37,826 nt of DNA from Pseudobutyrivibrio sp. (GTDB lineage: Bacteria > Bacillota > Clostridia > Lachnospirales > Lachnospiraceae): NCBI GenBank assembly GCA_024681435.1, contig JAILAV010000218.1, forward strand, positions 1 through 37,826, in the 5' to 3' direction. The position numbers and the translations under genes were made by a program. Shown here in pieces: positions 35,353 to 37,826 of the stretch (position 1 is the first letter of the stretch; each line of letters begins with the position of its first letter). The notes under the pieces are model-generated. The model made no database searches. It saw nothing but the letters and a program-made list of their open reading frames with translations, and had not been told where the DNA came from.

Positions 35353-36624
35353 ATGAAAACCCCATTTGTAAAAAAAGAGAAAATCCAGGAAATTATTAAG
35401 ACGATTCCAACACCATTTAATATCTATGATGAGAAGGGAATCAGAGAAAACGCAAGAGCTGTAAATGCAGCATTTAGCTGGAATAAAGGCTTTAAGGAAT
35501 ACTTTGCAGTAAAGGCAAATCCAAATCCATTTATCCTAAAGATTTTACAGGAAGAGGGCTGTGGTGTTGATTGTGCATCATATGTGGAGCTTGCTCTTTC
35601 TAATGAGTTAGGATTCAAGACAGACGATATCATGTTTTCATCTAACGATACTCCAGCATCAGAATTTCAGTATGCTGATGAGTTGGGGGTAATTGTAAAC
35701 TTAGATGATTTCACACACATTGATTTCTTTGAAAAGTCAGTAGGACATTTTCCTAAGAAGATGAGTTGCAGATACAATCCAGGTGGAGTTTACGAGCTTT
35801 CAAACGGCATCATGGACAACCCAGGTGATAGCAAATATGGTATGACAAAGGAGCAAATTTTTGAGGCATACCAGGTGCTTAGAGATAAGGGCGTAGAGGA
35901 GTTTGGTATCCACTCATTTCTTGTTTCTAACACTGTTACAAATGATTATTATCCAACTCTTGCAAGAGATTTGTTTGAGCTTATCGTTGAGCTTAAGGAA
36001 AAGACTGGAATCAAGCTTTCATTTGTTAATCTTTCTGGAGGTGTAGGAATTGCGTATAGACCAGACCAGACACCAAATGATATCGCTGTTATCGGCGAAG
36101 GAGTTCATAAGGCATACGATGAAGTTCTTGTGCCAGCTGGCATGGGAGACGTTGCAATTTTCACAGAGATGGGCCGTTTCATGATGGGACCATATGGTGG
36201 ACTTGTTACAACAGCCATCCATGAAAAGCACATTTATAAGGAATACATCGGTGTTGATGCTTGTGCCGTAGATTTAATGCGTCCAGCAATTTATGGTTCA
36301 TATCATCATCTTACAGTTCTTGGAAAGGAAAATGAGGCAGAGGATCATGTATATGATGTTACAGGTTCGCTTTGCGAGAACTGCGATAAATTTGCAGTAG
36401 ATAGACAGCTTCCTAAGATTGATATGGGAGACATTCTTTTCATCCACGATACAGGCGCCCACGGCTATTCAATGGGCTACAACTATAATGGTAAGCTTAA
36501 GAGTGCAGAAGTTCTTTTAAAGGAAGATGGAAGCTTTAAATTAATCCGTCGACCAGAGACTATTAAGGACTATTTAGCTACATTTGATGAGCTTGGCGTG
36601 GTTGACGGCATCCTTAAAAAGTAA
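35353..36624 (+). CDS. lysA: Diaminopimelate decarboxylase
   Basis: PLP enzyme that converts meso-diaminopimelate to lysine, the last step of lysine synthesis. The 423-residue protein has the PLP lysine Lys54 in YFAVKANPNP, the glycine-rich phosphate site VNLSGGVGIAYRP, and the C-terminal SLCENCDKFA and IHDTGAHGYSMGYNYNG typical of the family. The closest alternative would be a carboxynorspermidine decarboxylase, but the CENCD block and length favour LysA. CGGAGA lies about 11 bases upstream. It is a single gene with its own terminator. No strong promoter is evident; a TTTACA at 35144 with TAAAGT 17 bases on is a weak candidate. Confidence 0.85.
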   Translation: MKTPFVKKEKIQEIIKTIPTPFNIYDEKGIRENARAVNAAFSWNKGFKEYFAVKANPNPFILKILQEEGCGVDCASYVELALSNELGFKTDDIMFSSNDTPASEFQYADELGVIVNLDDFTHIDFFEKSVGHFPKKMSCRYNPGGVYELSNGIMDNPGDSKYGMTKEQIFEAYQVLRDKGVEEFGIHSFLVSNTVTNDYYPTLARDLFELIVELKEKTGIKLSFVNLSGGVGIAYRPDQTPNDIAVIGEGVHKAYDEVLVPAGMGDVAIFTEMGRFMMGPYGGLVTTAIHEKHIYKEYIGVDACAVDLMRPAIYGSYHHLTVLGKENEAEDHVYDVTGSLCENCDKFAVDRQLPKIDMGDILFIHDTGAHGYSMGYNYNGKLKSAEVLLKEDGSFKLIRRPETIKDYLATFDELGVVDGILKK

Positions 36625-36635
36625 TGATATAATTC

Positions 36636-36670
36636 ATATGGACTCCTAAAAAAAGGGGTCCATATTTTTC
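36636..36670 (+). terminator. Rho-independent terminator after lysA
   Basis: 11-bp stem with one G-T pair, ATATGGACTCC (36636-36646) / GGGGTCCATAT (36655-36665), followed by T-run. Confidence 0.9.
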
Positions 36671-36679
36671 ATTTTATTG

Positions 36680-36708
36680 TTGAAAATAATATGCCCTTTT
36701 AGTATACT
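36680..36708 (+). promoter_or_regulatory. Promoter of tRNA-Leu
   Basis: TTGAAA (36680-36685), 17-base spacer, TATACT (36703-36708), 11 bases before the mature tRNA. Confidence 0.75.
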
Positions 36709-36719
36709 AATTTTCGGAC

Positions 36720-36803
36720 GCCGGCATGTCGGAATTGGCAGACGAGGCAGACTCAAAATCTGTTGATGGCAACATCGTGTGGGTTCAAGTCCCACTGCCG
36801 GCA
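36720..36803 (+). tRNA. tRNA-Leu (anticodon CAA)
   Basis: Class II tRNA of 84 bases: acceptor GCCGGCA/TGCCGGC, anticodon loop CTCAAAA (anticodon CAA) on stem GCAGA/TCTGT, a long variable arm, T arm GGGTTCAAGTCCC, discriminator A. CCA not encoded. Confidence 0.95.
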
Positions 36804-36809
36804 TAAAGA

Positions 36810-36840
36810 AAGACTCAGCTTTTCGCTGAGTCTTATTTTT
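36810..36840. terminator. Terminator after tRNA-Leu, shared with the opposite gene
   Basis: 10-bp stem AAGACTCAGC (36810-36819) / GCTGAGTCTT (36825-36834), then T-run on the plus strand. It may also serve the minus-strand gene that ends at 36840. Confidence 0.85.
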
Positions 36841-37418
36841 TACTTCTTTTTAATTAAAAGTGAAAGAACTCCTAAAACGAATACAACTGCGCCTGAGCCA
36901 AATGCAAGTACTATTGTAAATGGAAATGGGCAAGTCTGAGGAATGGTTGTAGTTGTAATTAATTCTCCACAGACTTTGCAGTAGGTTTTACTTTCACCTT
37001 CTTGGAATAATGAAGCAGCCTTTGTAATCTCAGGTTTGCCAGCCATATGCCCTTTGGCATCAAAATCTTTTTTATAAGAATCGCCACATACTGAGCAAGT
37101 GTAAATATCATAGCCAGCCTCTGTGCAGGTAGACTCAACTCGCTCAGTCAGCTCATATGCATGAATATCAGTTATAGGAATAACCTCAGTTTTGGTTTCG
37201 CCAGTAAGAGAATTCTTGTATGTTACACTTCCTTCAGCTATGCATGTTGAGGGCGTTTTTTCTGTCTCTTCCCAAGCAGCTTCAATTTCTTCTTCAGAGT
37301 ATTTTGCTTCGGATGAATCTGGTGAGGTGGAATCAGCTCTTACTTCTACTATATTTAGTGCTAAACTCGTAAATATCACAAGTGCAAATATGCCAGCCGA
37401 TTTTATAAATCTCTTCAT
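36840..37418 (-). CDS. Small surface protein with Cys-rich repeats, unknown function
   Basis: A 192-residue protein with a signal peptide (hydrophobic residues ~9-22, likely cut after VRA), an acidic Ser/Glu-rich segment, and a C-terminal membrane helix ending in KKK. The middle holds repeats of the kind STCTEAGYDIYTCSVCG...GH common in Lachnospiraceae surface proteins: one full copy (residues ~95-125), a partial one with YCKVCGE after it, and a degenerate one before it. The CxxC pairs may bind zinc. AGAGG precedes the start on the minus strand. No neighbours explain its job. Confidence 0.7.
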   Translation of the reverse strand: MKRFIKSAGIFALVIFTSLALNIVEVRADSTSPDSSEAKYSEEEIEAAWEETEKTPSTCIAEGSVTYKNSLTGETKTEVIPITDIHAYELTERVESTCTEAGYDIYTCSVCGDSYKKDFDAKGHMAGKPEITKAASLFQEGESKTYCKVCGELITTTTIPQTCPFPFTIVLAFGSGAVVFVLGVLSLLIKKK

Positions 37419-37598
37419 TGTATTTCCTCTTTAGATTTCTATCAAATTTCAAACTAAATAATAAATATGGAAAGTCATTACTGTCGCTAGATTTATAAGA
37501 TGTTCCTGAAAGCTTAATCATTATATCATGACTTTAAGGATTTTTAATGAATTGCGAAGTTAAGAAAATGTCAGCGGTTTGGCGACTTATGATTTATA
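37419..37598. other. Non-coding A/T-rich spacer upstream of the repeat array
   Basis: About 180 bases without a convincing gene. It holds the upstream region of the minus-strand surface-protein gene; I see no clear promoter pair. One short open frame on the minus strand (37333-37521) overlaps that gene and has no support. Confidence 0.5.
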
Positions 37599-37825
37599 GT
37601 ATTAAAATAAAGCAATATTTGATTTTAATACTAAATTCAGTCGATTTTAGGCTTTGAAAATGCTTTAAAGTATTAAAATCAAATGAAAATCTCTTTTAAT
37701 ACCTTAAAATCGTTTTTTAGCGTATTAAAAATAAAAAATGCCAATATATAATACTCCGGCTAGGAATTTAGATAGAAAAAAGGCGCTTTTTGGTATTAAA
37801 ATCCAAAAAACGCCTTATTTAATAC
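37599..37825. repeat. Array of eight alternating copies of a GTATTAAAA motif
   Basis: Plus-oriented GTATTAAAA at 37599, 37670, 37722 and 37793 (all 9/9). Minus-oriented TTTTAATAC at 37623 (9/9), 37694 (9/9), 37746 (7/9) and 37817 (8/9). Orientations alternate strictly; each plus copy is followed by a minus copy exactly 24 bases later, giving four 33-bp elements GTATTAAAA-N15-TTTTAATAC. Element starts are 71, 52 and 71 apart. The N15 cores and the 38/19/38-base gaps are not conserved. It runs to the window end and may continue. It is unlike CRISPR because the core of the unit varies. Confidence 0.8.
37780..37816. repeat. Long hairpin over the fourth array element
   Basis: 14-bp arms with one mismatch, AAGGCGCTTTTTGG (37780-37793) / CCAAAAAACGCCTT (37803-37816); the 9-base loop TATTAAAAT is most of the array motif. 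No T-run follows. Confidence 0.7.
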
Positions 37826-37826
37826 T

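Follow-up and report, generated by a model that had tools for sequence, protein, structure and literature searches.

What kind of element is formed by the short motifs, alternating in orientation, with which contig 219 of this Pseudobutyrivibrio draft genome (2.23 Mb in 234 contigs, 81% complete; G000 below) comes to an end? In the window, by which we mean the whole stretch of 37,826 nucleotides analysed, positions 37599-37825 hold four 33-bp units of the form GTATTA-N21-TAATAC, separated by gaps of 38, 19 and 38 bp (Table 1). On recheck of the window sequence, the coordinates and the start-to-start steps of 24-47-24-28-24-47-24 given in the original prediction were correct; the sequence does have the 123-bp direct period and a dyad near 37712, the latter being refined by the mirror order of the arm letters described below. 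As to the eight copies of a 9-bp motif, six are exact 9-mers and two are not: the copy ending at 37754 is ATATAATAC, with two mismatches, and that ending at 37825 is ATTTAATAC, with one. All eight keep the hexamer GTATTA/TAATAC without a mismatch.

Table 1. Parts of the array in the window
Feature	Position	Strand	Length
Unit 1, GTATTAAAA-N15-TTTTAATAC, two inverted half-sites	37599..37631	.	33 bp
38-bp gap; A/T tracts at ~10-bp steps in the average of six arrays	37632..37669	.	
Unit 2	37670..37702	.	33 bp
19-bp central gap, dyad axis ~37712	37703..37721	.	
Unit 3, outer arm off consensus (GTATTATAT, reverse strand)	37722..37754	.	33 bp
38-bp gap; A/T tracts at ~10-bp steps in the average of six arrays	37755..37792	.	
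Unit 4, outer arm off consensus (GTATTAAAT, reverse strand)	37793..37825	.	33 bp

The window array is not a product of chance. Six exact 9-mer matches occur in the window against 0.75 expected, a number reached in none of 100 shuffles; a three-unit pattern matches twice in the window and never in 100 shuffles; and a motif-blind pair detector returns five pairs (four in the array and one unrelated at 37405/37461), with none in 20 window shuffles. Spaced motifs of this kind, which it had been proposed to look for in shuffled sequence, are thus absent from it. The array indeed lies at the window edge, ending at 37825 with the contig stopping one base later. Despite this it is complete, since four other sites in the genome repeat its 227-bp layout, and a fifth does so with an extra gap base.

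A search of the whole genome for more copies finds them at six places with near-identical spacing, on contigs 49, 51, 88, 182, 186 and 219, the sole change of layout among the six being found on contig 186, where the first gap is longer by one base. Units of the exact pattern GTATTA-N21-TAATAC number 24 in the 2.23-Mb draft, all within these six tetrads, and the pattern as searched has a 25th match, an isolated GTATTA..TGATAC hybrid on C110. The half-site reads aGTATTAWAW, with positions 1-6 and 8 invariant among 47 half-sites (of 48, the last, without flank, being left out of the scoring). The cores of the six arrays are dissimilar and so are the gaps; the six central gaps are A-rich in their left part and T-rich in their right part, as judged by eye. 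The arms also differ according to the direction in which they face: letters other than AAA stand at positions 7-9 in 18 of the 24 arms that face outward in the six arrays, and in 2 of the 24 that face inward (Fisher p 4.6e-6, for a rule noticed in the same data that tested it and counted by hand). Off-consensus letters face outward, and therefore each array is made of two oriented pairs in mirror order.

In other genomes of the genus the layout recurs, with arm letters that differ between genomes. The pattern GTAT-N25-ATAC matches in 10 of 29 genus genomes, G000 and Pseudobutyrivibrio ruminis DSM 9787 (G002) among them, and its reverse-pattern control in none of the 29; in another genus search the control matched once (G005). 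An eleventh genome, G026, has units at valS only, which this pattern misses. The feature is dispensable in the genus, because 19 of the 29 genomes are without a GTAT-N25-ATAC match. Arms of the form GTATTRAA are found in G000, G002 and, for the most part, G003, GTATCACTTT arms in G008, and GTATAAGAT arms in G004 and G024; asymmetric arms occur as GTATGACTAATGTGAA/GTATATTTT in G006 and G011, as GTATGACTTT/GTATCTTTT in G006, and as GTATATGTTGTGTGAA/GTATATATA in G006, G014 and G023. Outside G000, G002 and G003, 31 arrays with at least two strict 33-bp units (stretches L094-L118) have four strict units in 5 cases, three in 18 and two in 8; when lengths of 32-34 bp and one mismatch among the eight end letters are admitted, four units are seen in 23 arrays, five in 1, three in 5 and two in 2, some of the short ones reaching a contig end. 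Gaps between adjacent strict units measure 37-40 bp in the other species of the genus, and 17, 28, 39-40, 48-50 and 60-61 bp in P. ruminis and G003, where two longer stretches hold a broken unit or separate two elements.

Beyond the genus, five loci of G077, which belongs to another genus, carry 2-5 strict units each, with unrelated CATAGGGA arms, 33-bp units and gaps of 40 bp in 11 of 11 cases between strict units. Directly beside CATAGGGA arrays at two G077 loci (L155:7080-7870 and L157:5980-6670) stands a class whose arms are TCAGTAT and whose period is 73 bp, joined at one of the two loci by a third class with TTAGTGAA arms. A separate class has a period of 52-53 bp, its arms being GACACG in G002 and G003, TGACGCCT in G008, TGCGTGTT in G024 and TACGGTTC in G056; in P. 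ruminis and G003 (L043:1210-1900, L048:4000-4490) its 37-bp GACACG..CGTGTC units recur every 53 bp in a long array, with 12 strict units in G002, and in G056, from a third genus, the period is 53 bp as well (L172:17830-18120). Some of the 53-bp finds (G024, L118), whose cores are similar, may be plain tandem repeats.

In the family as a whole arrays are patchy, since a motif-blind survey of 60 stretches from 48 family genomes (979,541 bp) gave one array in 0.98 Mb, that of G056, with no match in one shuffle per stretch, and two 20-kb G077 stretches gave none; this is a lower bound, the detector having missed the asymmetric class (0 in L112). Searched by its letters, the GTATT version is found in 2 of 397 family genomes (G000 and one G120 match), and the GTAT version in 6 of 200, namely G000 and five others with 1-2 matches each; the reverse-pattern control of the latter matched in four genomes of the 200, with a single match in each of three and 11 in G077, where the matches are arrays with other arms, so that this control column is not pure. 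Among 84,980 species genomes the two-unit pattern was met in five stretches, two of which come from P. ruminis. Not counted as members were a Ruminococcus MAG match with two near-identical units, a Dermatophilaceae MAG match (L023:1478-1575) with two 33-bp GTATTA..TAATAC units that have longer arms, TTCGAGGTATTA, and similar cores, and a third unrelated match in a stretch rich in TGGTAATAC. Viral contigs gave no match to the two-unit GTATTA pattern and five to a generic three-unit pattern, which were set aside as all resembling short-period coding tandem repeats (the first match was inspected); plasmids and phages gave no match to the array.

Selection on half-sites and spacing, which the original prediction had put forward, is supported by six arrays with invariant hexamers, by the dyad order of letters, by the fixed spacing and by fewer substitutions in arms. 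In six pairs of orthologous or duplicated arrays, substitutions amount to 17/432 in arms, 52/363 in cores, 66/691 in gaps and 153/713 in flanks (arm against core p 2e-7, arm against gap p 4e-4), where low arm counts are favoured because the units had been located through the arms of one sequence in the pair, and where the pairs include G024/G026, the fourth unit being lost in G026. It had also been said that only the motif and the spacing are kept; both are kept, but the intervening DNA keeps helix-phased A/T tracts as well. The A/T content outside the arms oscillates in G000, 10.0 bp being the strongest period among 8-13 bp and none of 2000 shuffles as high, and in four more sets the strongest of 6-16 bp are 9.8, 10.4, 10.2 and 10.4 bp (0 of 1000 shuffles each), figures that are overstated in that the shuffles treat sequences as independent and the sets except G000 hold orthologous or duplicated arrays or units. 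Such phased tracts usually mean curved DNA. The unit-to-unit distances of 50, 52, 61, 70-73, 83, 93 and 94 bp (within 40-100 only, and with units of other length, for example one at 81 in G002, left out) fall within about one third of a turn of whole turns; their periodogram, with a resultant of 0.81-0.90 for any period of 9.5-11.5 bp, hardly discriminates because most distances are 70-73. Between the two arms of a unit there is no better match than between random arms in any of four sets of the 73-bp class (24 units in G000, 24 in G008, and 16 and 8 in two G077 classes), G008 being slightly above random (p 0.17 at arm length 10) and G000 and both G077 sets below; the 53-bp class has weak within-unit covariation (p 0.02-0.03 at arm length 10).

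We favour the reading, and hold it to be reasonably probable, that the array, with its dyad symmetry and probable curvature, serves as a platform on which a higher-order protein-DNA complex is built. One dimer would sit on each 33-bp unit, whose half-sites are 24 bp apart from start to start, and two units would stand on each side of the central dyad; the spacings would hold the units near one helix face, the phased A/T tracts between half-sites would pre-bend the DNA for wrapping or looping, and dimers of a protein with fast-changing specificity would assemble on the platform so formed. The units, their dyad order and fixed spacing, the phased A/T, the arm constraint, the intergenic dispersal and the genome-specific arms are read from the sequence itself. 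From them we infer the binding of a protein, its dimer state, the curvature of the DNA and a joint change of specificity in protein and sites; co-evolution with a protein is suggested because one arm word is common to all arrays of a class and the word differs between species. Against the platform it counts that class-mixed genomes such as G006 would need several proteins, and that no binding protein was found.

Several known systems invite comparison with such a platform, which would work like multi-site wrapped nucleoprotein arrays and shares with them the helix-phased A/T tracts. The lambda O-some, in an iteron-type replication origin, has four inverted-repeat sites on bent DNA that are bound by dimers; unlike iteron-type origins, the arrays here exist in several dispersed chromosomal copies with a 72-bp period, and no initiator gene was recognised among the array neighbours scanned. 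Partition sites (parS, parC, omega heptad arrays) are short sites that nucleate a large complex, a handful per chromosome, from which the arrays differ in the architecture of their units and in the turnover of arms between species; no par gene was recognised among the neighbours scanned. The arrays are like CRISPR in having a partly palindromic repeat of ~33 bp and a spacer of ~39 bp, and unlike it in the lack of conservation inside the repeat and in a usual length of four units. CRISPR had been excluded from the outset, rightly, as only the arms are shared and near-identical full-length repeats are absent. A Pfam scan of 20 neighbour ORFs gave no Cas match.

The arrays are intergenic. Flanking genes are convergent in 4 of 39 array-bearing regions against 5 of 48 array-free ones, and 35 of 39 array-bearing intergenic regions, against 43 of 48 array-free, lie upstream of at least one gene, that is, no bias in flanking-gene orientation or toward promoters is seen relative to other long intergenic regions (based on crudely called ORFs of 90 aa or more, with orthologous loci entering more than once and the window array left out). 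The neighbours are diverse: GHKL kinase, LytTR regulator, AgrB, PDDEXK_2 nucleases, AbiEii, DUF1016, DUF2442, YitT and HMA by Pfam, and others that, by eye, we take to be hydrogenase, diaminopimelate dehydrogenase, cysK and surface proteins. Clusters found within 2 kb of arrays in at least three loci are the valS-locus orthologues, surface proteins (5), ABC ATPases (5), giant surface proteins (4), a nuclease cluster (4) and PLP enzymes (3), labelled by eye where there is no Pfam match (the nuclease cluster has one, to PDDEXK_2), and no general partner emerges from these recurring neighbours. As neighbouring genes are diverse and their orientation is unbiased, our guess at the purpose, and a weak one, is a dispersed chromosome-organising, bridging or silencing site, not a gene-specific operator. 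The contig-186 array lies 210 bp past the end of an agr-like operon (GHKL kinase, LytTR regulator, AgrB; L042:4607-7250), and Pfam PDDEXK_2 (Rpn-type) genes stand beside or between arrays with repeated flanking modules at L117:4700-7741 and L100:5040-7122.

The valS locus can be compared across genomes. The G000 and G002 arrays share this place and have dissimilar cores, and other species have 33-34-bp units with other arms there. A related neighbour gene, presumably PD-(D/E)XK-like and without a Pfam match in its G000 copy, is present in all eight array-bearing genomes, more than 1500 bp away in G008 and short, perhaps broken, in G004 and G006. G003 has a shortened neighbour gene and no array, and 16 other genomes have neither in the upstream DNA examined (less than 1 kb in two, G011 with 969 bp and G014 with 512 bp); the comparison leaves out G007, G015, G016 and G018, which have no usable upstream stretch. 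G002 and G003 make one clean pair, with a difference of ~713 bp and a short AAGAG match at the junction.

The main rival, which we consider unlikely, is a mobile, non-autonomous repeat of BIME/REPIN type: a separate transposase or nuclease would spread each arm class, with tandem multiplication of its units. It would account for several arm classes in a genome, stacked at one place (G077; G006), for tandem units with similar cores (L155 units 2-4), for duplicated arrays, with some flank in G004, G006 and G023 and the array alone in G008, and for PDDEXK_2 genes near arrays at some loci. BIME, REP and REPIN elements with RAYT transposases are likewise regularly spaced palindromic intergenic units of species-specific sequence with several classes per genome, and the species specificity of REPs is tied to their transposase, as described in PMC2817692. 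The cores and gaps of the six G000 arrays are, however, dissimilar, unlike recent copies, and only six arrays were found, 24 exact units in 2.23 Mb, whereas REP/BIME usually exceed 100 copies per genome (PMC2817692). Instead of the conserved palindromic stem of REP/BIME there are dissimilar cores and arms that neither covary nor pair preferentially, and the arrays further differ in being few-copy, in keeping arms and freeing cores, in their four-unit dyad layout and in their helix-phased A/T tracts; nor are they tagged GTAG or CGTC like the REP families of PMC3733652. No empty site with target duplication was seen, and the clean G002/G003 valS pair gives no direction.

That the arrays are gene-specific operators of one transcription regulator, with a regulon of about six genes, we regard as improbable. 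The upstream position in 35 of 39 regions, the array that follows an agr-like operon with a LytTR regulator and the related neighbour gene in 8 of 8 valS array genomes would agree with it, but array-free regions are alike in lying upstream of genes (43 of 48) and the neighbours are diverse. LytTR operators, as described in PMC6193735, are 9-bp direct repeats 11-13 bp apart, mostly 12, just upstream of the -35 element, whereas the arms here are inverted and 15 bp apart.

It is quite improbable that the arrays are recombination sites bounding exchangeable gene cassettes. At three loci, alignments of close relatives, judged by eye, do lose homology ~2-13 bp beyond the unit edges, and accessory genes stand beside arrays, DUF2442, AbiEii and DUF1016 by Pfam, with two ORFs resembling a PIN toxin-antitoxin pair (by eye) in G001, which is without the array; yet the junctions have no one fixed point, no recombinase occurs among the 20 neighbours scanned, and intergenic hot spots behave in the same way without site-specificity. 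The core sites of integron attC are RYYYAAC and GTTRRRY, and both are absent from both strands of 37599-37825, in agreement with the earlier rejection of attC. Finally, an array of RNA or single-strand hairpins, allowed for at first in the form of RNA hairpin ends, is very improbable and largely refuted: the arms are inverted repeats and the separate 53-bp class covaries weakly, but the four 73-bp-class sets lack covariation, units are plainly asymmetric in several species, the A/T tracts are phased, and Rfam on 36600-37826 gives, above gathering score, only a tRNA-Leu at 36720-36803.

There is also a broader proposal, to which we give less than even credence: the arrays may be a new class of chromosomal element in some Lachnospiraceae, namely low-copy curved dyad arrays, usually of four dimer sites, with a seven-turn (71-73 bp) period, together with related five-turn (53 bp) arrays that have more units. 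Every class would then be read by a fast-evolving DNA-binding protein of its own, the architecture being inherited and the recognition word replaced genome-wide. Such elements could serve as bacterial chromosome bridging or boundary sites. If so, they would be a clean natural case of a fixed binding-site architecture whose sequence word is exchanged across the genome, and a ready substrate for finding the protein; they may show something of the genome organisation of rumen and gut Lachnospiraceae, or a new kind of intergenic repeat. The open-access literature, to which the search was confined (subscription papers and preprints being outside its scope), gave no description of such arrays.

Two further observations concern the immediate surroundings. 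Beside the window array, at 36840-37418 on the reverse strand, is a gene whose 192-aa product, judged by eye, appears to be secreted and anchored in the membrane; a sub-cut-off hit is its sole Pfam match. Several assemblies stop a few hundred bases or less from an array, at 37826 in the window and likewise on C3, C67 and C95 of G006, C75 of G011, C32 of G023 and C120 of G024, which suggests that repeated DNA adjoins the arrays.
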